From: Roseomonas gilardii | Lineage (GTDB): Bacteria; Pseudomonadota; Alphaproteobacteria; Acetobacterales; Acetobacteraceae | Direction of reading: 5' to 3' | Assembly: GCF_001941945.1 (NCBI RefSeq) | Contig: NZ_CP015583.1 | Span: forward strand, 3,045,501-3,109,500 | Length of the DNA stretch: 64,000 nt | Shown here: piece by piece, positions 7,007 through 16,926 of the stretch | How the letters are laid out: each line of letters opens with the position of its first letter | Numbering within the stretch: the first letter of the stretch is position 1 | Program-made: the position numbers and the translations under genes | Notes under the pieces: generated by a model | Told to the model about the DNA's origin: nothing | The model's database searches: none | Seen by the model: only the letters and a program-made list of their open reading frames with translations

Positions 7007-7975
7007 CTACGCCCCGCCCAGCCCGGCCCGGATCGCGGTCGTGAAGCTGCGGTCCAGCAGGTCCTTCGCCTCCACCGGCTTCCGCACCAGCCCGGCGCGG
7101 CGGTAGAGGTCGATGTTCCCCTGCTCGTCCCGCTCCACGGCATCGTCCACCGGCACGACCCGGGTCTTCGCCCGCGCGAACCAGTGCTCTGCCACCGGCG
7201 CCGGCACGTTCATCAGCCCCGACCAGGTCTGCGCATAGCCCGCGACATTCGCATTGGCCCATGCCCGCGCCTGGGCCAGCCGCCGCACGAATTCCGACAG
7301 GTCCTCCCGCCGCCGCGCGATGGCATCGTCGCGCGCCGCCTGGAAGCCGAGCCCCGGCGTGATGCCGCGACCGTCCGCTACGATCCGCGCACCGTTCAGG
7401 AGCTCCTCCTGCGACACATAGGGCTCCCAGGTCGCCCAGGCCTCCACCGCGCCGCGCGACCAGGCCGCCTTGGCATCCGCTGGCAGCAGGAAGACGAACT
7501 GCACCGCATCCAGCGGCAGCTTCGCGTTCTCCAGCGCCGCCAGCACCACCTGATGCCCGATCGAGCCCCGCCCGGTGGCGATGCGCTTGCCCACGAGGTC
7601 CTGGATGGACTTCACCGGGCTGTCCTTCGGCACGATGATGGCGAGGCCGCCCCGGTCCTCGCGCGTCGCGGCGATGGCCTTCGCGGGCACCCCCGCCGCC
7701 GCGCCGAAGGTGAAAGGCGCATCCCCCACCAGCCCGGTGTCGATGGCATCGGCGTTCAGCGCCTCTACCAGCGGCGCCGCGGCCGGGAACTCGCTCCAGG
7801 CGATCCGGTCCTCGAAGCCCTTCAGCGCGCCCGAGGCCTCCAGCACCGCCCGCGCATTGCCGCGCTGGTCGCCGACGCGCAGCGGCGTCCCCTGCGCGCG
7901 CAGGATGCGCGGCATCGCCAGCGGAAGGGCGATCCCCGCCCCCGCCAGCAGCAACCCTCGCCGGTTCGGACTCAT
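7007..7975 (-). CDS. Sulfonate/organosulfur ABC transporter receptor (SsuA-like), copy 1
   Basis: A 322-aa periplasmic binding protein with an N-terminal signal containing a twin Arg (NRRGLLLAGAGIAL, cleaved near ILRAQG). The rest is typical of SsuA/TauA receptors: LRVGDQRGNARAVLEASG, IAWSEFPAAAPLVEALNADAIDTGLVGD and KRIATGRGSIGHQVV. It is the last gene of the sulfonate operon; its ATG overlaps the ssuD-like stop (7972-7975). A second SsuA-like receptor lies upstream in the same operon, so this system has two receptors for one permease. The substrate is inferred from the neighbours only. Confidence 0.88.
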   Translation of the reverse strand: MSPNRRGLLLAGAGIALPLAMPRILRAQGTPLRVGDQRGNARAVLEASGALKGFEDRIAWSEFPAAAPLVEALNADAIDTGLVGDAPFTFGAAAGVPAKAIAATREDRGGLAIIVPKDSPVKSIQDLVGKRIATGRGSIGHQVVLAALENAKLPLDAVQFVFLLPADAKAAWSRGAVEAWATWEPYVSQEELLNGARIVADGRGITPGLGFQAARDDAIARRREDLSEFVRRLAQARAWANANVAGYAQTWSGLMNVPAPVAEHWFARAKTRVVPVDDAVERDEQGNIDLYRRAGLVRKPVEAKDLLDRSFTTAIRAGLGGA

Positions 7976-9105
7976 TCCGCCGCCACCCGGTGTGCCGCCC
8001 GCTCGGCGATCCGCTGGGCCACCAGCCGCTTGGTCAGCGGCAGCAGCGTCCGCCCATACTCCGCCGCATCCTCCAGCGGGTCGAAGCCGCGGATCAGGAA
8101 GGTCGTCACGCCCAGGTCGTAGTATTCCAGGAAGGCCTCCGCCACCTGCTGCGGCGTGCCCACCAGGGCCGTGGTGTTCCCCCGCGCCCCGGTCTCGCGC
8201 GCGATCGCGGTATAGAGCCGCCCCTCCGGCCGGTCGCCCCGCTCCGCCGCCGCCAGCAGGCGCTGCGAGCCCGCATTGGCCGGCGCCTTGTTTGCCGGGC
8301 CCAGCGCCGCCTGCCCGCGCACCTCGCGCACCCGGCCCAGGATGCGCTCCGCCTTGGCCCAGGCCGCCTCCTCGGTCTCCGCCAGGATCGGGCGGAAGCT
8401 CAGCGAGAAGCGCACCTCGTGCTCGCGCCCGTACCGTGCCGCCTCCTCGCGCACCCGCCCCACGATCTCGCGCACCTGCGCCTGGGTCTCGCCCCACAGC
8501 GCATAGACATCCGCATGCTTGCCCGCGACCCGCAGCGCGGCCTCGGAGGCGCCGCCGAAATAGACCGGGATGCGCGGCTTCTGCACCGTCCGCACCTCGG
8601 GCGAGGCGCCCTTGATGCGATAGTAGGCGCCCTCATGGTCCACCGGCTTCGTGCCGGTCCAGATCGCCTTCAGGATATCGACATACTCGTCCGTCCGCGC
8701 ATAGCGGTCGTCCTTGCCGAGCCAGTCGCCGTCCCGCGCCTGGTCCACGTCGTCGCCGCCGGAGATCACATGGATCGCGGCCCGCCCGTTCGAGAGCTGA
8801 TCCAGCGTCGCATAGCTCCGCGCCGCTAGGCTAGGCGCCAGGAAGCCCGGCCGGTGCGCGACCAGGAAGCCCACGTGCTTCGTATGCGCCGCCGCGTCCG
8901 TGGCCAGCAGGAATCCGTCCGGCCCGTTGCTGTACCAGCCGATCAGCACACGATCGAAGCCGCCCTCGTCATGCACCCGCATGGACTCGCGAAAGTATCC
9001 GAGGTCGATCGCCTCACCGTGTGGCGGATGGATCTCCGACTGCTCGCGTGGCTGCACCATGCCGATGAACTCGACATCGTTCAGATGGGAACCCGGAACC
9101 GTCAT
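7972..9105 (-). CDS. ssuD: FMNH2-dependent alkanesulfonate monooxygenase (SsuD-like)
   Basis: A 377-aa bacterial-luciferase-fold monooxygenase. Family stretches are GGFDRVLIGWYSNGPDG, HRPGFLAPSLAARSYATLDQLSNGRAAIHVISGG, and RYARTDEYVDILKAIWTGTKPVDHEG. SsuD splits the C-S bond of alkanesulfonates using FMNH2 and O2 to release sulfite. Length matches SsuD. The ATG at 9105 follows an AGGGAGAAAG stretch. No flavin reductase (SsuE) gene is present in the operon, so reduced FMN must come from elsewhere. It overlaps the downstream receptor gene and lies 22 bases after the acyl-CoA-dehydrogenase-like gene. Confidence 0.9.
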   Translation of the reverse strand: MTVPGSHLNDVEFIGMVQPREQSEIHPPHGEAIDLGYFRESMRVHDEGGFDRVLIGWYSNGPDGFLLATDAAAHTKHVGFLVAHRPGFLAPSLAARSYATLDQLSNGRAAIHVISGGDDVDQARDGDWLGKDDRYARTDEYVDILKAIWTGTKPVDHEGAYYRIKGASPEVRTVQKPRIPVYFGGASEAALRVAGKHADVYALWGETQAQVREIVGRVREEAARYGREHEVRFSLSFRPILAETEEAAWAKAERILGRVREVRGQAALGPANKAPANAGSQRLLAAAERGDRPEGRLYTAIARETGARGNTTALVGTPQQVAEAFLEYYDLGVTTFLIRGFDPLEDAAEYGRTLLPLTKRLVAQRIAERAAHRVAAE

Positions 9106-9127
9106 CGGCTTTCTCCCTTCACTCGTC

Positions 9128-10264
9128 TCAATTCGCACCCAGCGCCCGGCACCCTGCGGCACCGTAGGCGCTGTCGGGCTGCGGCGTGTGGATGCGCGCG
9201 CAAAGCACGTCGCGCAGATGCCGCTCCAGCGGGTTGGACCGCGCCAGCGCATGGTTGCCGCAGAGCGCCACCGCCTCCTGCACCACGGCGATGGCGTTCT
9301 CCGCCGCCACGGTCTTGATCAGCCCGGCCTCGGCCGCCTCCAGCCCCGCGTCGCGCGCGCCGGAGGCGACGAGCCGGTCATTGGTCAGCAGCAGCGCCTC
9401 GATCCGCCCCACCGCCTCCTGCATGCGCGGCAGCGTGGCCAGCGGCCTGCCGAGATTGGCCGGCACGCGTGCCTTCAGGAAGCCGACCAGCCAGTCCCGG
9501 GCCGCCCGCGCCACGCCCGTGTAGAGCGCCGCGATCAGCAGCGTGTTCCAGGCCCCGTGCTGAGCGTTCGGACCGCCCCGCTCCTCGGGCAGCCGCAGGT
9601 CCACCGCCTGCTCCAGCGGCACCAGCGCATCCTCGAAGACCACGTCATGGCTGCAGGAGGCCCGTAGCCCGGCCTGGTCCCAGCTTTCCTCGATCCGCAC
9701 GCCCGGCGTGCCCGCCCGCACCAGCAGGAACCCTGTGCGCGGCCGCTCCTCGTCGGTCCGCAGCCAGACCAGCATCCAGCGCAGCCCCGGCGCCCCGGTG
9801 GAGTAGATCTTGCGCCCGCTGACGCGCCATCCCTCCGGCGTGCGCCGCGCCACCGTGCCCGGCAGCCCGCCGCGCGCCGGCGTGCCCAGCTCCGGCTCCA
9901 CGCGCAGCGCGTTCACCAGTGCCCCGCGCTCCACCGCCTCGCGTCCCACCAGCGCCTTGATGTGCTCCGGCACCTGCGCGTCAGCGACCAAGCCGCGGAT
10001 CTGGATCAGCTGCATCGCCAGCACCAGCGCCGTGGCCGGGCAGCCTTCGGCCACCCGCCCCACCAGCGCGCAGGCCCGCTCCAGCCCGATCTCCTCGCCA
10101 CCGTCCTCGCGCCGTGCCGTCAGGCCCAGCATCCCGGCCTCGTGCAGCGCCGCGAAATTCTCGTGCGGAAAGGAACCGTCCCGGTCATGCGCCGCGGCCC
10201 GCGACGCGAAATCCCGAACCAGATCGCCCAGGGGATCGGCTCGCACCAGCAACCCGTCCATCAT
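9128..10264 (-). CDS. Acyl-CoA dehydrogenase-like flavoprotein (SfnB/DszC-type sulfur acquisition)
   Basis: A 378-aa protein of the acyl-CoA dehydrogenase superfamily. Seen are the helical N-terminus with ENFAALHEAGMLGLTARREDGGEE, the mid-domain GWRVSGRKIYSTGAPGLRWMLVW, SWDQAGLRASCSHDVVFEDALVP, and a C-terminal helical domain. In sulfur-scavenging operons such relatives (SfnB, DszC) act as flavin-dependent monooxygenases on sulfones or related organosulfur compounds rather than on acyl-CoA. Placement between two sulfonate receptors and ssuD supports that reading, but the exact substrate is unknown. Its start overlaps the upstream receptor stop (10261-10264). Confidence 0.82.
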   Translation of the reverse strand: MMDGLLVRADPLGDLVRDFASRAAAHDRDGSFPHENFAALHEAGMLGLTARREDGGEEIGLERACALVGRVAEGCPATALVLAMQLIQIRGLVADAQVPEHIKALVGREAVERGALVNALRVEPELGTPARGGLPGTVARRTPEGWRVSGRKIYSTGAPGLRWMLVWLRTDEERPRTGFLLVRAGTPGVRIEESWDQAGLRASCSHDVVFEDALVPLEQAVDLRLPEERGGPNAQHGAWNTLLIAALYTGVARAARDWLVGFLKARVPANLGRPLATLPRMQEAVGRIEALLLTNDRLVASGARDAGLEAAEAGLIKTVAAENAIAVVQEAVALCGNHALARSNPLERHLRDVLCARIHTPQPDSAYGAAGCRALGAN

Positions 10265-11250
10265 GCCGCCAGCTCCAGTCCATGCCCGAAGTCACGATCC
10301 CAGAGCGGCGCCACGTCCACGCCCTTCGGCAGCAGGCCGAGCACGGCGAAATCCTCCGCCACCGCCTGATGCGAGGCGATGGCCGCCGCATCAGGCGCCA
10401 CCAGCCGCCGTTTCTGGCTGACATTCTCCAGCAGGGAGCGGATCACCCCCTCCGGCACGTTCAGCAGCTTCGACTGCGCCGCGGCCAGTTCCGCGGTGTG
10501 GTCGTCGATCCAGCGATAGGCCCGCGACAGCCGCGCCAGATGATCGGCGATCGCCGCGCGCCGCGCCGGATCGGCCAGCGCATCGGGGCTGGCGAAGAAC
10601 AGGTAGTTCCCCGACAGGATGCCGCGCGCGTTGCGCAGTTCCCGCGCCCCGGCCTCGCGCGCAATCGGCACGGAATAGCCGTAGATCGCCCAGGCATCGA
10701 GCGCCCCGTTCTGGAAGGCCGCGCGCCCATCGCTGGGCGTGAGGTTCACCGCCTGGATGTCGCGGAAGCTCAGCCCCGCCTCGGCCAGCATCCGGTTCAG
10801 ATAGTAGTGCGTGGTGGTCGCCCGAACATAGCCGACGCGCTTGCCCTTGAGGTCGGCAATGCTTTGCACCGTGGAGCCTTTCGGCACCAGCACCACCTGC
10901 TCGTTCACATCGCCGCGGATTACCGCGATCACCTTGATCCGCGCGCCCGAGGCGGCGGCGAAGGCAGGCGGGATCTCGCTGCCATAGGCGAGGTCGATCG
11001 CCCCGGCATTCACCGCCTCGACCATCAGGTTGCCGCTGCCGAACTCGGACCACGCCACCTCGTAGGGCCGGTCGCGATCCTCACCGGAAAGGTTCAGCAC
11101 CAGCGCGTCGCCCGCCTTGTACTGCGCCAGCCGCAGCGTCACGCCGGACGGTATGGCAGCCGCCCGCGCGCGTCCCGGCAGCAGCAGCGCCGGCGCCGCC
11201 AGCATCGCGCCTCCCACCAGGGCGCGCCGCCGTGTCAGCAGGCCGCTCAT
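10261..11250 (-). CDS. ssuA: Sulfonate/organosulfur ABC transporter receptor (SsuA-like), copy 2
   Basis: A 329-aa receptor with an N-terminal signal containing RRR followed by a hydrophobic run (ALVGGAMLAAPALLLPGRARA). SsuA-type features are EVAWSEFGSGNLMVEAVNAGAIDLAYGSEIPPAFAAASG and GYVRATTTHYYLNRML. It is separated by a 4-base overlap from ssuB, so this is probably the principal receptor of the SsuABC transporter. Sequence differs widely from the second receptor at 7007-7975, so the two are not a recent duplication and may bind different sulfur compounds. Confidence 0.88.
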   Translation of the reverse strand: MSGLLTRRRALVGGAMLAAPALLLPGRARAAAIPSGVTLRLAQYKAGDALVLNLSGEDRDRPYEVAWSEFGSGNLMVEAVNAGAIDLAYGSEIPPAFAAASGARIKVIAVIRGDVNEQVVLVPKGSTVQSIADLKGKRVGYVRATTTHYYLNRMLAEAGLSFRDIQAVNLTPSDGRAAFQNGALDAWAIYGYSVPIAREAGARELRNARGILSGNYLFFASPDALADPARRAAIADHLARLSRAYRWIDDHTAELAAAQSKLLNVPEGVIRSLLENVSQKRRLVAPDAAAIASHQAVAEDFAVLGLLPKGVDVAPLWDRDFGHGLELAA

Positions 11251-11978
11251 GCCGCGCGCCTCAGGTTTTCCTCGACGCCCAGCTCCGCCAGCAGCCGCTG
11301 CCGCAGCGCCACGAAGCCGGCCTCGCCATGGGCGCGCGGCCGCTCCATCGCCACGGGAATGTCCGCCGCGATCCGCCCCGCATCAAGCACCAGCACCCGG
11401 TCCGCCAGCAGGATCGCCTCGTCCACATCATGCGTGACGATCAGCGTGGTCGGCCCGTGCGCGCGCCACAGGTCCAGCACCAGCGCATGCATCCGGATGC
11501 GCGTCAGCGCGTCCAGCGCCGCGAAGGGCTCGTCCAGCAGCAGCAGCCTCGGCTCCCGCACCAGCGCCCGCGCCAGGGCGGAACGCTGCGCCTCGCCGCC
11601 CGACAGGGTCAGCGGCCAGGCATTCAGCCGGTGCGACAGGCCCACCTCGCCCAGCGCCCGCTCCGCCCGCTCGCGCGCCCCACTCCCGGGCAGGCCGAGG
11701 GTCACATTCTGCCAGACCTTTTTCCAGGGCAGCAGCCGCGGCTCCTGGAACACCGCCGCCACGCTCTCCGGAAGCCGCACCTCCGCATCCTCCGGCACCG
11801 GGTCGAGCCCGGCCAGGGTCCGCAGCAGCGTCGTCTTGCCCGAGCCCGACCGGCCCAGCAGCGCGGTGAAGGAGCCTGGCTCCAGCTCGATATCCAGGCC
11901 GTGCAGCACGGTGTTCTGGCCGAAGCGCCGGGTCAGGCCGCGCACCGAGACGGCGCGCGCGTTGTTCTGCTCGCTCAT
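11247..11978 (-). CDS. ssuB: Sulfonate ABC transporter ATPase
   Basis: A 243-aa ABC ATPase. Walker A is GRSGSGKTTLL (about residues 42-52), the Q-loop is VFQEPRLLPW, the signature is LSGGEAQR, Walker B is RLLLLDEPFAALD, and the switch His is in VTHDVDEA. The EPRLLPW and DVDEAILLADR stretches are typical of the SsuB/TauB/NitD group. It powers uptake through the permease encoded just upstream. The ATG at 11978 was used; the stop overlaps the receptor start by 4 bases. Confidence 0.93.
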   Translation of the reverse strand: MSEQNNARAVSVRGLTRRFGQNTVLHGLDIELEPGSFTALLGRSGSGKTTLLRTLAGLDPVPEDAEVRLPESVAAVFQEPRLLPWKKVWQNVTLGLPGSGARERAERALGEVGLSHRLNAWPLTLSGGEAQRSALARALVREPRLLLLDEPFAALDALTRIRMHALVLDLWRAHGPTTLIVTHDVDEAILLADRVLVLDAGRIAADIPVAMERPRAHGEAGFVALRQRLLAELGVEENLRRAA

Positions 11979-11995
11979 GGTTCCCGCTCCCCCGC

Positions 11996-12856
11996 TCACG
12001 CCTTGATCAGGCTCGGCCGCCAGGCCAGCGTCCGCCGCTCGACCAGGCGCATCAGCGCATCCGCCCCCAGCCCCAGCAGCGCATAGACGACGAGGCCCAC
12101 GACGATGACGTCGGTGCGCAGGAAGTCCCGCGCGTCGTTGATCAGGTAGCCGATGCCCGAGGTCGCGTTGATCTGCTCGGCGATCACCAGGCTCAGCCAG
12201 GCCGTCCCGATCGCGTAGCGCAGCCCCACGATGCCCGAGGGCAGCGCGCCGGGCAGGATCACGTGCCGGATCATCCCCCGCTGGTCGAGGCCGAAGACCT
12301 TGCCCGCCTCCATCAGCTTGGGATCGACGCCCCGGATGCCGGCGAAGAGCGTCAGATAGACCGGAAAGCTCGTCCCCAGCGCCACCAGCGCAATCTTCGG
12401 CGTCTCGCCGATGCCGAACCACAGGATGAAGAGCGGCACCAGCGCCAGGAAGGGCAGTGTCCGCAGCATCTGCAGGGGCGCGTCCACGATCTCCTCGCCC
12501 AGCTTCGACAGGCCGGCGATGAGCGCGAAGGCGGTGCCCGCCGTCACGCCGATGGCCAGCCCCAGCGCCACCCGGCCCAACGAGACCAGCAGGTGGTGCG
12601 GCAGCTCGCCCGAAAGCGTCAGCTCCCAGGCCGAGGCGATCACCGTGCTCGGCGCCGCGAGGGTGCGTGGCGAGATCAGCCCGGCCATGGACGCCGCCTG
12701 CCACAACAGCACGATCACCAGTGGCGAGACGAAGCGCCGCGCCTTGCCGAGATTGAGACGGCCGGGCAGCAGCGCCCGTGCCGCCCGGGCAAGGCTGCGG
12801 TCGGAAAGGGAGGAAGAGGAGCGCCGGGTGGCGCCGATCACCTGGGTGTCGGACAT
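11996..12856 (-). CDS. ssuC: Sulfonate ABC transporter permease
   Basis: A 286-aa inner-membrane permease of the BPD transporter family. It has about six hydrophobic segments beginning VSPLVIVLLWQAASMAGLI. The EAA-loop motif reads LMEAGKVFGLDQRGMIRHVILPGALPSGIVGLRYAIGTAWL. It is the first gene of the sulfonate operon and lies 17 bases before ssuB. The ATG at 12856 (MSDTQVIG) was chosen; an open frame upstream overlaps the leader region and reads as low-complexity Pro/Arg/Gly protein, so it is not taken as part of the gene. Confidence 0.92.
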   Translation of the reverse strand: MSDTQVIGATRRSSSSLSDRSLARAARALLPGRLNLGKARRFVSPLVIVLLWQAASMAGLISPRTLAAPSTVIASAWELTLSGELPHHLLVSLGRVALGLAIGVTAGTAFALIAGLSKLGEEIVDAPLQMLRTLPFLALVPLFILWFGIGETPKIALVALGTSFPVYLTLFAGIRGVDPKLMEAGKVFGLDQRGMIRHVILPGALPSGIVGLRYAIGTAWLSLVIAEQINATSGIGYLINDARDFLRTDVIVVGLVVYALLGLGADALMRLVERRTLAWRPSLIKA

Positions 12857-12922
12857 GCTGGCTCCGTCTCGGCCACCGGCCCTGGGGCCGCGCGATCCGC
12901 GAAAAGGGGAGAGGTGGTGGAA

Positions 12923-12974
12923 CCCGGCGGAAGGCCGGGCAGGGATGGCGCGGGCCTCAGCCCGGCAAGCCGGG
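12923..12974 (-). promoter_or_regulatory. Paired hairpins in the sulfonate operon leader
   Basis: Two perfect 6-bp hairpins lie between the leader ORF and ssuC. CCCGGC/GCCGGG (12923-12928 with 12934-12939) has a 5-base loop, and CCCGGC/GCCGGG (12961-12966 with 12969-12974) has a 2-base loop. They share the same arm sequence, so alternative pairing between the two is possible. This would suit attenuation, but GC-rich DNA yields such pairs by chance and no T-tract follows. Confidence 0.35.
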
Positions 12975-13100
12975 AGCGGCCCGACCGGTGCGGACCCGGC
13001 AGCGACAACAGGCGCGGCACATCGGAACCGGACCCATCCGGTCCCCGATGCGCCCGCCGGACGCAGCCTCATGCCCAGGATTCCACGACATCTCGTTCAT
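12957..13100 (-). CDS. Candidate Cys-rich leader peptide of the sulfonate operon
   Basis: A short reading frame of 47 codons from the ATG at 13100 to the TGA at 12957-12959, all within the leader of ssuC. Near its middle it reads MCRACCRCRV, four Cys in seven residues. A shorter version can start at the Met just before this cluster (13022), giving 21 residues. A Cys cluster in a short ORF ahead of a sulfur-acquisition operon is what a cysteine-sensing attenuator would look like, and hairpins follow it. No convincing ribosome site is visible, so translation is uncertain. Confidence 0.35.
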   Translation of the reverse strand: MNEMSWNPGHEAASGGRIGDRMGPVPMCRACCRCRVRTGRAAPGLPG

Positions 13101-13104
13101 GGAG

Positions 13105-13160
13105 CAAAGGATAGGCAGTGGGTTATTCGCGATAAATAGTCGGGTTTATCGAAATTCAAC
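13105..13160 (-). promoter_or_regulatory. Probable promoter/operator of the sulfonate operon
   Basis: The only AT-rich stretch between the Lrp gene and ssuC. On the minus strand it offers TTGAAT as a -35 and TATTTA as a -10 with about 15 bases between. An inverted repeat GATAAA (13131-13136) / TTTATC (13145-13150) overlaps it and could bind a LysR-type sulfur regulator. The transcript would have a leader of about 260 bases before ssuC. Confidence 0.4.
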
Positions 13161-13204
13161 GCGCCGGGAGGATGGCATTTCCTGGCCGGCCGATCAGGGG
13201 GGAG

Positions 13205-13705
13205 TTATTCCTCCGCCCCCTCCGTCGGCTGGCCCCGGTCGCGGAAGGCCGCCCGGTTCAGTGGGAAGGCGGTGGTGTGCTTGATCCGCTCCATGGCGAA
13301 GCGAGAGGTCACGTTGCGCATCGGCACCGTCCCGATCAGCCGCTTGTAGAACTGGTCGAACTCCGCCATGTCCGCTACCGAGACGTGGAGCATGTAGTCC
13401 ACCTCTCCCGCCATGCGATAGGCCCCCATCACCTCCGGCATCGCCTCCACCGCCTGGGCGAAGCGTTCCAGCCAGTCCGGCGTATGGTCTCCCGCCTCCA
13501 CCGCCACGAAGACGCTCAGCCCCACCCCCACCTTCTCCGGTGCCACCAGCGCCACCCGGCGGGTGATCACCCCGGCGGCCTCCAGCTTCTGCACCCGCTT
13601 CCAACAGGGCGTGGCGGAAAGCCCCACCCGGTCCGCCATCTGGGCGATGGAGAGCGTGGCATCCTGTTGCAGGATCGCGAGGAGCTTGCGGTCGATCTCG
13701 TCCAT
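13205..13705 (-). CDS. Lrp/AsnC family transcriptional regulator
   Basis: A 166-aa regulator. The N-terminal AsnC-type helix-turn-helix reads MDEIDRKLLAILQQDATLSIAQMADRVGLSATPCWKRVQKLEAAGVI. A RAM/AsnC ligand-binding domain follows (GAYRMAGEVDYMLHVSVADMAEFDQFYKRLI). Such proteins sense amino acids and control amino-acid metabolism or transport. It lies upstream of the sulfonate operon on the same strand, but 348 bases and a separate promoter-like stretch intervene, so a direct link is not shown. The ATG at 13705 fits the family N-terminus exactly. Confidence 0.9.
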   Translation of the reverse strand: MDEIDRKLLAILQQDATLSIAQMADRVGLSATPCWKRVQKLEAAGVITRRVALVAPEKVGVGLSVFVAVEAGDHTPDWLERFAQAVEAMPEVMGAYRMAGEVDYMLHVSVADMAEFDQFYKRLIGTVPMRNVTSRFAMERIKHTTAFPLNRAAFRDRGQPTEGAEE

Positions 13706-13730
13706 GAACACTCCGTCCGGTCGCCGTCCC

Positions 13731-13775
13731 GGTGCCTCGGGGGACATCCCCCAAGGGGGGACCTCAGGAGGCACC
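13731..13775. repeat. Nested inverted repeat upstream of the Lrp gene
   Basis: Outer arms GGTGCCTC (13731-13738) and GAGGCACC (13768-13775) enclose an inner GGGGGA/TCCCCC pair (13739-13752). It begins 25 bases upstream of the Lrp start and could be an operator or leader structure. The rest of the gap between the Lrp gene and the CheY-like gene (13706-14032) shows no gene or other recognisable signal. Confidence 0.4.
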
Positions 13776-14032
13776 CCGGGCTTCCCCTCGGGAGCGGCTG
13801 ACCCAGCCACCCGGCGTTTCCCCGGCCCCATAAGGGATCACGCGCCAGCCGCCGGGGGTCAAGGCCATCCCGGTCGCCCCGTCCCGCTGGCCTCCTCCGC
13901 TCATCCCCTTCCCCGCCCATGTCCGGGCCGCGCCCCAGCCTCGCCCCCCGATCCAGGCCACGTGACTGAACCTTTCCCGTGTTGCGGCGCTTATCCGTGA
14001 ACAGGATGCAACGATGGGGGCAGGAGGACGGC

Positions 14033-14437
14033 ATGTGCGATATACTCGTGGTGGATGACGACGAACTGGTGCGATCCACCCTCTCCTCGATCCTGGAGAT
14101 GGAGGGCTGGTGCATCCGCGAGGCGGGCTCCCCCGACGAGGCCACGGTCGTCACGGAGAACGAGAACTGCCGCATGCTCGTCACCGACATCAATCTCGGC
14201 ACCCCGCAGGACGGCTTCGATGTCACCGCGCAGCTCCGCAGCCGCAGCCCCGGCCTGCCCGTGGTCTATGTCAGCGGCCGTCCCTGGGTCTTCAATGGGC
14301 GTCATCTGAACGCCGAGGAGCGCACCCTGGCCAAGCCGTTCCGCGCCGAGGACCTCACCCGTATCGTGCGCGAACTTCTCGGCCTCGCCCACATGGATCA
14401 CCCGGCACGCCAGGGCGCCTTCCTGAAGGGGCCGTGA
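14033..14437 (+). CDS. Single-domain response regulator (CheY-like)
   Basis: A 134-aa receiver domain with no output domain. The acidic pocket is ILVVDDDE (Asp8-10), the phospho-acceptor is Asp52 in MLVTDINLG, and the conserved Lys is in TLAKPF. It should act by protein contact after phosphorylation by a histidine kinase; no kinase lies next to it. An in-frame ATG at 13979 would add 18 residues not expected of a receiver, so the start at 14033 is preferred. Confidence 0.88.
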   Translation: MCDILVVDDDELVRSTLSSILEMEGWCIREAGSPDEATVVTENENCRMLVTDINLGTPQDGFDVTAQLRSRSPGLPVVYVSGRPWVFNGRHLNAEERTLAKPFRAEDLTRIVRELLGLAHMDHPARQGAFLKGP

Positions 14438-14617
14438 CCGGGGCTGCGGCGAGCATGGCGCCATCATCCTCCGACTGCCCTCTTGCCTGCGGCGAAGCGG
14501 TCACGGATGATGTCCCATGAAGCACCAAAGCCACGCGAACTTCTCGCGAGATCATCATCTGAACAGGGATTTGTGCCATCGGGCGGATCGGCCTGCCTCC
14601 GGATGGAGCCGGCGCCG

Positions 14618-15937
14618 ATGAACGACTCAAGCTCCTCCACCGGCCTCCGGCTCGGCAGCCTTCCCGAAGTCCACCGCAGCGTCGGCATTCCCCGCACCGG
14701 CAGCACCTTCCGCCGCTTCCTCGCCTTTGCCGGCCCCGGCTATCTCGTCGCCACCGGCTACATGGACCCGGGCAACTGGGCCACGGCGATCGCCGGTGGC
14801 TCGGCCTTCGGCTACACGCTGCTTTCCGTCGCGCTGCTGTCCTCGCTGATGGCCATGCTGCTCCAGGCGATCTGCGCGCGCGTCGGCATCGCCACCGGCC
14901 GCGACCTCGCCCAGCTCTGCCGCGAGCGCCTGCCCCGCCCCCTCGCCGTACCGCTCTGGCTCCTGGCGGAAATGGCCATCTGCGCCACCGACCTCGCGGA
15001 GCTGATCGGCACCGCGGTCGCCCTGCAGCTCCTTTTCGGCATCCCGCTGCTGCTCGGCACCGTGCTCACCGCGCTCGACGCCCTGTTGATCCTCTGGCTG
15101 CAGCACAAGGGCATGCGCTGGCTGGAGGCGATGGTCGCCGGCTTCCTCGCGCTGATCTGCGCCTGCTTCGCCGTGCAGGTCGCACTCTCCGACCCGAACT
15201 GGGGCGAACTGCTGCGCGGCTACCTGCCCTCCGCCTCGATCGTCACCAACCAGACGCAGCTCTACATCGCCATCGGCATCATCGGCGCCACGGTGATGCC
15301 GCATAACCTCTACCTGCACACCGCCGCCGTGCAGTCTCGCGCCGTCGCACCGGACGATGCCAGCCGCAAGGAGGCCGTGCGCTTCGCCACCTGGGACAGC
15401 TGCACGGCGCTGACCATCGCCCTGCTGGTCAATTCCGCCATCCTGATCGTCGCCGCCGCCGCCTTCCACACCAGCGGCCATCACGAGGTCGCGGAACTTC
15501 AGGACGCGCACAGCCTCCTCGCCCCGCTGCTCGGCGCCGCCGCGCCCATCCTCTTCGCGGTGGCGCTGCTGCTCTCGGGCCTCAACTCCACCGTCACTGC
15601 CACGCTGGCCGGGCAGGTGGTGATGGAGGGCTTCATCCACTTCCGCCTGTCCCCGGTGGTCCGCCGTCTCGTCACCCGTGGCATCGCCATCGTCCCGGCG
15701 CTGGTCGTCACCTGGCTCTATGGCGAGAGTGGCACGGGAGAGCTCCTGATTCTCAGCCAGGTGGTCCTGTCGCTGCAGCTTCCCTTCGCGGTGATCCCGC
15801 TGATGCTCTTCGCCTCGGACCAGAAGCTGATGGGCAACCTCGTCACCCCCCGCTGGCAGCGCGTGGCCGGCTGGACCATCACCATCCTGATCGTGGTGCT
15901 GAACGTGAAGCTCATCGCGGACACGGTCATGGGCTGA
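14618..15937 (+). CDS. mntH: Nramp-family divalent metal (Mn2+) transporter
   Basis: A 439-aa proton-coupled metal transporter with about eleven hydrophobic segments. The first-helix metal motif is [10 protein letters not shown], and the conserved sixth-helix motif is [16 protein letters not shown]. Family members import Mn2+ and sometimes Fe2+ or other divalent ions. The open frame extends upstream to 14483. Met at 14618 was chosen because the extension has no family match, although 14603 is also possible. No riboswitch or clear metal-regulator operator was recognised in the 180 bases upstream. Confidence 0.92.
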
Positions 15938-15981
15938 TGAAGACAGGGCGTGGGGCCCAGCCCCCCCGCCCCGTTCCGGTG

Positions 15982-16926
15982 TCAGTGGTTCAGCGTCCCC
16001 GCATTGATCACAGGCACCGGGTCCTTGTCCCCCACCAGCACCAGCAACAGGTTCGACACCATCGCCGCCCGCCGCTCGTTGTCGAGCGCAAGGCCCTTGC
16101 GCTCCAGCGCGGACAGCGCGTCCTCCACCATGTCCACCGCCCCGGCGACGATCTTGCGCCGCGCTGCCAGCACCGCCTCCGCCTGCTGCCGCCGCAGCAT
16201 CGCCCCGGCGATCTCGGGCGCATAGGCGAGATGCGTGATCCGCGCCTCGCCGATGCGGATCCCCGCACGTCCGACCCGCTCCTGCAACTCCCGCACCAGC
16301 CCCTGCACCACCTCGTCGCCGCCATCCAGCAGCGTGACAGGGGCGCGCGCCGCCACCGCCGCCTCGGCCTCCGTGCCGCCCACGCCGCTGACGATGGCCA
16401 CCTCCGTCGCATCATAGGCATGCGCCCCGGCGATCCGCCGCAGCGCCGTGTCGCTCTGCACCCGCACGAAAGCCTCGTAGTCGTCGATTTCCAGCAGGGC
16501 CGCCGCCGAATCCGACACCCACCACACCACCGCCGCGCCGATCTCGATCGGGTTGCCCACGGCATCGTTGACCTTCAGCGCCGCGATCTCGTGCGTCCGC
16601 AGCCGCCGCGATACCTTGTTGCGCGTGTAGAGTGGATTGGTGAAGCGCAGCCCCGCCACGCCATCCGTGGCGCGATAGGCACCGAAGAGCAGCAGCACCG
16701 CGCTCTCGTTCGGCGCCAGCACATAGAGCCCGCGCAGCAGGAACAGCCCCAGCGCCACCAGCAGCCCGGCCGGCACCACCCGCCCCGGATGCCCCGTCGC
16801 GGCGGAGACCAGGAACAGCAGCACCCCCGCCGCCACCAGCAGCAGGATCGCCCCCAGCGCCACATAGCCGCTCACCGCGAAGCCGCGCCGATCCCGCACC
16901 GCGCCGCCGCCATCCGCTTCCGTCAT
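15982..16926 (-). CDS. SPFH/Band-7 domain membrane protein
   Basis: A 314-aa protein. Two membrane segments are followed by an SPFH (prohibitin/flotillin/HflK-like) domain: LRGLYVLAPNESAVLLLFGAYRATDGVAGLRFTNPLYTRNKVSRRLRTHE, then ITHLAYAPEIAGAMLRRQQAEAVLAARRKIV. Such proteins form oligomeric scaffolds in membranes and often steer proteases. The ATG at 16926 was preferred over the one at 16932 because GGGAGG lies 6 bases before the former but directly against the latter. It is convergent with mntH. Confidence 0.88.
   Translation of the reverse strand: MTEADGGGAVRDRRGFAVSGYVALGAILLLVAAGVLLFLVSAATGHPGRVVPAGLLVALGLFLLRGLYVLAPNESAVLLLFGAYRATDGVAGLRFTNPLYTRNKVSRRLRTHEIAALKVNDAVGNPIEIGAAVVWWVSDSAAALLEIDDYEAFVRVQSDTALRRIAGAHAYDATEVAIVSGVGGTEAEAAVAARAPVTLLDGGDEVVQGLVRELQERVGRAGIRIGEARITHLAYAPEIAGAMLRRQQAEAVLAARRKIVAGAVDMVEDALSALERKGLALDNERRAAMVSNLLLVLVGDKDPVPVINAGTLNH

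Follow-up and report, generated by a model that had tools for sequence, protein, structure and literature searches.

The ssu operon of Roseomonas gilardii is preceded by a short upstream open reading frame (uORF) with cysteine codons that probably acts as an attenuator sensing Cys-tRNA, is predicted to be leaderless and would control the sulfonate genes through Rho or another block downstream. The analysed stretch of DNA (here called the window) comprises 64,000 nucleotides, and the leader ahead of its ssuC gene was compared with those of related genomes. On this comparison the uORF is beyond chance, and the comparison supports conservation of the uORF and its reading frame, in-frame TGT or Cys codons, the spacing of a -10-like hexamer, the absence of a Shine-Dalgarno (SD) sequence and a C-rich spacer. 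The initial annotation of this DNA had proposed a cysteine attenuator made of a leader frame with four clustered Cys and a pair of hairpins; of this idea the conserved in-frame Cys uORF is supported, and the hairpin pair as a conserved switch and a general four-Cys cluster are not.

Leader and genes of the ssu operon in the window

The features of the locus are as follows.

12957 to 13100, minus strand: uORF (leader ORF) of 47 codons, with the translation MNEMSWNPGHEAASGGRIGDRMGPVPMCRACCRCRVRTGRAAPGLPG up to the stop codon
12999 to 13019, minus strand: Cys codon cluster C-R-A-C-C-R-C (TGC, TGT, TGT, TGC) within the uORF
12857 to 12956, minus strand: spacer from the uORF stop to ssuC, candidate Rho loading region
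12862 to 12865, minus strand: Shine-Dalgarno sequence GGAG of ssuC, read from the sequence
11996 to 12856, minus strand: ssuC, aliphatic sulfonate ABC transporter permease, first gene of the presumed operon
7007 to 11978, minus strand: genes after ssuC, assigned to the operon by their order and spacing

The frame with four clustered Cys on the minus strand at 12957-13100 was confirmed by translation, with CRACCRC present. Its Cys codons were read from the sequence as TGC at 13019-13017, TGT at 13010-13008, TGT at 13007-13005 and TGC at 13001-12999, and the uORF stop is separated from the ssuC ATG by 100 nt. That ssuC lies directly downstream was correct in the initial annotation; the start quoted there, 12857, is one base off, the ATG being 12856-12854. 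The short uORF ahead of the ssu genes is probably translated. The leader had no match in Rfam at E values up to 5 (positions 10000-16000 of the window searched), and none of the NCBIfam leader peptide models matched the uORF of the window or four other leader peptides. A fold of the window leader contains a strong hairpin at 13016-13054, within the uORF and directly before the Cys cluster, which may act as a pause site and looks, by eye, less regular in the two nearest relatives.

The best NCBIfam model for the first gene was SsuC (E = 6e-76, below the curated cut-off). Past ssuC the gene order is ssuB, an SsuA-family gene, an acyl-CoA-dehydrogenase-like gene, an SsuD/SfnG-like monooxygenase gene and a second SsuA-family gene; the acyl-CoA-dehydrogenase-like product matches the models of 3-sulfinopropanoyl-CoA desulfinase (SulpropCoADesulf) and SfnB. 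According to these profile matches the downstream genes resemble those for sulfonate uptake and desulfonation, and the names are given at family level because, apart from the last gene (the second SsuA-family gene), none reaches the curated cut-off of its best model. The region 7007-11250 thus encodes two different SsuA-family substrate-binding proteins, and the SfnB/desulfinase-like acyl-CoA dehydrogenase homologue adjoins the monooxygenase. A gene for an Lrp/AsnC-type regulator is located upstream on the same strand. Elsewhere in the assembly, parts of two smaller contigs match plasmids of Roseomonas, including R. mucosa, in one case with 100% identity over 87% of the part compared, which makes an assignment to Roseomonas most likely.

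Conservation of the uORF in related leaders

An ssuC orthologue was found in all 15 genomes of the same genus, and the upstream DNA of all 15 was read. In a wider search, 49 of 397 genomes of the family had an ssuC match at E <= 1e-100. The set of 24 close leaders used here consists of the 15 same-genus leaders and nine from a sister genus (g16) with an ssuC identity of at least 77%. Four g16 genomes are represented by named records with the same uORF (L051, L052, L054, L055), and three g16 genomes with a more distant ssuC (57-69%) are outside the 24, namely L022 (doubtful), L195 (without uORF) and G107 (57%, unread).

An in-frame uORF containing one or more Cys precedes ssuC in all 24 close leaders. 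The argument against the attenuator named beforehand, loss of the Cys cluster or a shift of its frame in orthologous leaders, was thus not borne out. The uORFs are between 17 and 47 codons long, form 10 clusters at 70% nucleotide identity and have a median pairwise identity of 0.56; examples of the peptides are MNDTPSRAASFGCRPAACRG, MNDTLSRAASFECRRTCCPG, MTPRPAIPPMRPAPPGRMPGSRRAPCCRG and MMMSCPHAPPRPCCRGC. They contain one to four Cys, with a single Cys in eight of the 24, so that four clustered Cys are not general. In 20 uORFs a Cys is found within the last five codons, the exceptions being L001 (the window), L009, L038 and L043, and in 16 it stands three codons before the stop. Many of the peptides end alike, with CRG, CRR, CPG or CPA before the stop, while the remainder differs between clusters, and the well-conserved leader nucleotides include those around the uORF stop. 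Indels of 3, 9 and 12 nt were observed within the uORFs of the two alignable groups, all of them in frame; the 3 and 12 nt indels occur in the MNDT group. For the seven MNDT uORFs (21 pairs), 74, 83 and 113 substitutions were counted at codon positions 1, 2 and 3, a modest third-position excess, compared with 150, 180 and 179 downstream and 213, 230 and 185 upstream of the uORF.

The window leader and its nearest relatives, L009 and L038, form an atypical clade with three to four Cys further upstream and without a terminal Cys. The start, frame and stop of the uORF are kept in both relatives, the residues ACCR are common to all three in the alignment, and the uORF of L009 differs from that of the window by a 9-nt gap in frame. 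Since the window leader belongs to this atypical type, its Cys standing 14 to 20 codons ahead of the stop, the terminal-UGU geometry of the other relatives is not claimed for it.

Beyond these two genera the leader is either absent or uncertain. Possible Cys uORFs were seen in the more distant leaders L013, L017, L018, L019, L020, L022, L030/L067, L057 and L191, all outside the 24, with SD-like starts in L017 and L019. No convincing Cys uORF was recognised in L014, L015, L021, L023, L024, L188-L190 and L192-L199; in L014 and L189 an ORF ends in CC or C, but it runs across a promoter-like stretch. Cys ORFs present in L023 and L059/L198 were set aside, L016 was partly masked and L029 had almost no upstream DNA. 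Two records titled Mycobacterium sp. KBS0706 and Microbispora sp. (L056 and L057; the titles may be wrong) carry an ssuC 68-70% identical to the Roseomonas query, and the possible uORF of L057 ends in GCCCP.

At least two Cys in the last ten codons are present in 12 of the 24 uORFs of the two genera. ORFs of 4-60 codons with this property were found upstream of ssuC in 0 of 14 actinobacterial and 4 of 22 mostly alphaproteobacterial cases, and additionally in 4 of 20 pseudomonads, 0 of 7 betaproteobacteria, 1 of 9 named Acetobacteraceae and 3 of 12 other loci of the family.

Cysteine enrichment and codon choice

Towards the ends of the short ORFs that lie ahead of ssuC, Cys ranked first among the 20 amino acids in the 15 genus leaders (z = 9.9; 0 of 300 dinucleotide shuffles as high) and also in 19 other ssuC leaders, five of which belong to the 24 (z = 5.9); in 12 further or more distant family loci it ranked second (z = 2.1). 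The relatedness of the leaders inflates these z scores, and thinned sets gave z = 6.3 for seven spaced genus leaders, 6.3 for the nine of the sister genus and 9.5 for both combined. Among the controls, cysE yielded z = -2.2 (27 loci) and cysS yielded z = 3.9 (15 loci) and 2.9 (7 loci), with Cys also first, which means that a z of 3.9 with Cys in first place can result from nothing more than related or overlapping coding sequence. In three of the seven genomes listed the cysS signal came from ORFs within 300 bases upstream; these are taken to be out of frame inside an upstream gene, presumably gltX.

The TGT codons of the uORFs are frame-specific, with 40 in frame and 8 and 1 in the other frames, compared with 10, 19 and 8 for TGC. 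The resulting TGT:TGC ratio of 40:10 stands against 27:281 in 144 control ORFs from the window and 11 related loci (Fisher 1e-25, with leaders that are not independent), a preference for UGU over UGC that makes codon-specific starvation sensing testable. The other uORF codons have an NNT:NNC ratio of 49:288, i.e. 49 of 337 end in T. An earlier, partly different set of 26 uORFs had given 37:16 versus 8:22 in 10 hand-picked ORFs. In the codon and skew controls, genes were delimited using a rule on third-position GC instead of annotation.

Predicted promoter region and start of the uORF

Upstream of the uORF two elements were located in the window.

13108 to 13113, minus strand: -10-like hexamer TATCCT, ending 7 nt before the uORF ATG
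13130 to 13151, no strand assigned: palindrome CGATAAA-N8-TTTATCG upstream of the -10-like hexamer, candidate transcription factor site

A TANNNT hexamer ends 6-9 nt ahead of the uORF ATG in 22 of the 24 leaders, 14 of them at 7 nt, where the uORF starts were picked by eye and some choice therefore enters the spacing test; 6.8% of mononucleotide shuffles have such a hexamer at 5-9 nt, the range allowed in the test. None of four SD patterns searched before the uORF ATG matched in any of the 24 leaders. Due to the -10-like TANNNT near the ATG and the unmatched SD patterns, the uORF is probably leaderless or nearly so. A generic sigma-70 scan returned no promoter at the window leader. The initial annotation had held that a transcript starting downstream of 12957 would speak against the attenuator; the start predicted from the -10 spacing is the uORF ATG itself.

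The palindrome is the only match in the window and is perfect, with 0.10 matches expected at up to three mismatches, and it is identical in L009 and L038. The motif TTTGGGAAW-N5-CTCTTT (at most one mismatch) occurs once each in 10 of the 15 genus genomes, ahead of ssuC by coordinates. By sequence, the putative upstream promoter element differs between clades while the uORF stays.

Other loci of the genomes

Among the matches listed for a sequence model built from 11 leaders, strong ones occurred only ahead of ssuC in those 11 genomes, the next having E = 0.0014 and the remaining ones being weaker still. The model misses the leader of the window itself (best match in its own genome E = 0.03, on another contig), and because this leader goes unrecognised, the search says little on uORFs of different sequence. 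Ahead of the cysI-sulfate operon in three genus genomes, neither an ORF with clustered Cys nor a shared Cys uORF was found; short one-Cys ORFs, present in two of these genomes, are not common to them. In the own genome, cysI (L174, position 7745) starts without a Cys uORF behind an AT-rich promoter-like stretch, and cysteine control there, if any, would therefore be of another kind. At the seven loci of other ssuC-like permeases in this genome, at most one Cys was found in any six residues.

Proposed mechanism and mode of control

In the proposed mechanism the ssu operon transcript would start at the uORF ATG, and the uORF would be translated from the extreme 5′ end of the mRNA. With plentiful Cys-tRNA the ribosome would pass through the uORF and leave; the naked C-rich spacer would then be bound by Rho, or be blocked otherwise, and expression of ssuCBA would be low. 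A cysteine shortage would be sensed by the ribosome on the uORF, and the sulfonate genes would be switched on. Translation of the uORF, stalling on it, the response to cysteine and Rho as the effector are the inferred parts of this mechanism.

Three hairpins of the window leader were considered.

12961 to 12974, minus strand: first hairpin CCCGGC-TT-GCCGGG, 6 bp, inside the uORF end
12923 to 12939, minus strand: second hairpin CCCGGC-CTTCC-GCCGGG, 6 bp, with the same arms, in the spacer
12951 to 12964, minus strand: stop hairpin CGGGC-TGAG-GCCCG, spanning the uORF stop

The two hairpins with identical arms reported at the outset do exist, at 12974-12961 and 12939-12923. Arms similar to those of the first are present in L009 and L038, and arms similar to those of the second in L009 and, with a loop insertion, in L038. 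The fold of the whole window leader lies within the range of chance (z = -1.55), being equalled in 13 of 200 shuffles. A terminator-like site was found neither in 12780-13240 of the window nor, by a similar simple rule, in any of the 24 leaders. The hairpin pair was accordingly rejected as a conserved or general switch, since the window leader has no folding excess, no terminator-like site was found and identical arms were noticed, short of a systematic search, in the three-genome clade of the window alone.

The spacer of the window contains a pyrimidine-rich, G-free tract at 12922-12901 and has 46 C and 31 G in total (skew 0.19). Across the 24 leaders the C>G skew of the stretch before ssuC is 0.32, compared with 0.04 in 92 control 5′ intergenic stretches (p = 1.8e-9). 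The accessibility of the ssuC SD sequence was modelled in the same leaders, by thermodynamic folding only, for the free state and with a ribosome stalled at the last Cys codon; the means were 0.38 and 0.40, with seven leaders up and three down (p = 0.13). Release of the ssuC SD by the stalled ribosome was set aside because this change is inconsistent. Rho-dependent attenuation is favoured over SD release because a terminator-like site is absent, the spacer is strongly C>G and SD accessibility lacks a consistent change. Given the rest of the mechanism, the chances that Rho is the effector are about evenly balanced, the argument being solely one of base composition.

The same Cys-sensing uORF could also act by translation attenuation, in which the stalled ribosome remodels the RNA and exposes the ssuC ribosome binding site without termination. 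This mode has been described for mycobacterial cysteine uORFs (PMC13236596), and a hairpin across the uORF stop recurs in the leaders: its mean stem is 5.4 bp in the 24 leaders versus 3.9 bp (sd 0.27) with shuffled flanks. In the window, the stop hairpin overlaps the hairpin at 12961-12974 and the two are therefore mutually exclusive. However, covariation in the stop hairpin is weak, with one of five pairs changing on both sides in 13 genus leaders and 62 of 500 shuffles reaching the score; in this test 82% of cells pair, compared with no more than 57% when the hairpin is slid. The modelled SD accessibility described above also speaks against this mode. Translation attenuation is regarded as a less probable alternative; it shares its sensor with the preferred explanation, and the confidences in the two overlap and do not sum to one.

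Counting against any Cys-sensing attenuator, the window, L009 and L038 are without the usual terminal-Cys geometry, at the very site of the original finding, and the single-Cys uORFs make a weak starvation sensor. Those uORFs, and the similar peptide ends of many leaders, would also suit a nascent chain whose end (C-R-G-stop and similar) stalls the ribosome on a signal other than Cys supply. Arrest of this kind is improbable, since the remaining peptide differs between clusters, the codon itself, beyond the residue, appears to be selected, as judged from the TGT:TGC ratios, and Cys is absent from the last five codons in the clade of the window. Slightly more improbable is the reading that TGTCGSGGCTGA and the surrounding hairpin are kept for protein or RNA binding with the ORF being incidental: conservation of the nucleotides around the stop agrees with it, but uORFs of such different lengths keep Cys in frame with an ATG at the -10 spacing, their indels in the alignable groups are in frame, TGT is frame-specific, and the window clade is without the TGT of the motif yet keeps Cys. 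A chance ORF with chance hairpins in GC-rich DNA, for which the unremarkable folding of the window leader and the chance occurrence of short Cys ORFs (in the cysS control and upstream of ssuC in other bacteria) might speak, is made very improbable by the conservation seen across 10 clusters, together with their codon choice and promoter spacing.

With the Cys-tRNA-sensing attenuator as the preferred reading, a more detailed account can be put forward tentatively, as a whole with somewhat less than even confidence. A leaderless Cys-starvation attenuator dedicated to sulfonate scavenging would have arisen in the Acetobacteraceae independently of the mycobacterial ones; as its usual sensor it would use UGU, a rare wobble codon, fixed at the third position from the stop, so that a ribosome stalled there would sit over the beginning of a C-rich site for Rho loading; and in the clade of the window the sensor would have moved upstream into a multi-Cys cluster and the promoter element would have been replaced.

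Comparison with known systems

The leader differs from a classical trp-type attenuator in that no terminator-like site is present and the overlapping alternative hairpins of the window go along with no excess of folding. In E. coli, tnaC encodes a tryptophan-dependent arrest peptide, and the ribosome near the stop of this uORF decides on the access of Rho to the spacer. A ribosome held near the uORF stop would likewise decide on Rho access in the ssu leader, although codon starvation and not an arrest peptide is proposed here; the tna analogy was drawn for cysteine leaders in PMC1262725. That proposal of 2005 concerned cysteine leader peptides without terminators in Mycobacterium, Propionibacterium and Bifidobacterium and suggested Rho by this analogy. 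Those leaders resemble the present one in having Cys codons near the stop and no conserved terminator hairpin, and differ in belonging to Actinobacteria and in preceding cys and cbs operons (PMC1262725).

Among Alphaproteobacteria, the uORFC-8-2 motif of the cysS leader in Rhodobacterales is likewise a uORF with Cys codons and a proposed ribosome-mediated attenuator. As published, it has tandem Cys usually at codons 14-15, dominant UGC, two stems and an intrinsic terminator with a U-run, whereas the ssu leaders have ssuC instead of cysS downstream, dominant UGU and no terminator-like site (PMC8632094). A survey of premature terminators mentions an attenuator in front of an operon for a sulfonate transporter, in a passage that names no Cys uORF (PMC2965389). 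Among the literature matches listed, no title or abstract start dealt with a Cys uORF ahead of ssu genes or in Acetobacteraceae, in a coverage that leaves out most subscription journals.

The closest likeness is to mycobacteria, in which cysteine attenuators are indeed described, as the initial annotation had stated (PMC9094748, PMC13236596, PMC4633059). Leaderless Cys uORFs were seen there as first candidates (PMC4633059), and polycysteine leaderless short ORFs were reported as cysteine-responsive attenuators (Canestrari et al. 2020, as cited in PMC9094748 and PMC13236596). The Roseomonas uORF shares with them, as far as these sources describe them, Cys codons ahead of sulfur or cysteine genes, the genes downstream here being ssuC, ssuB and SsuA-family genes, and a leaderless start is predicted for it. 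It belongs to another phylum, the likeness being one of description and not of compared sequences; compared with the descriptions cited, it has one to four Cys, mostly UGU and often exactly three codons before the stop, it precedes a sulfonate operon, and no second copy was recognised by the one model used. By this analogy, the Roseomonas ssu uORF most likely works like the mycobacterial polycysteine leaderless uORFs. If so, a proteobacterial case serving sulfonate scavenging would be added to cysteine-responsive attenuation, which would point to repeated origins of leaderless Cys uORFs. Gene callers easily overlook uORFs of this small size, and more of them may for this reason be unannotated.
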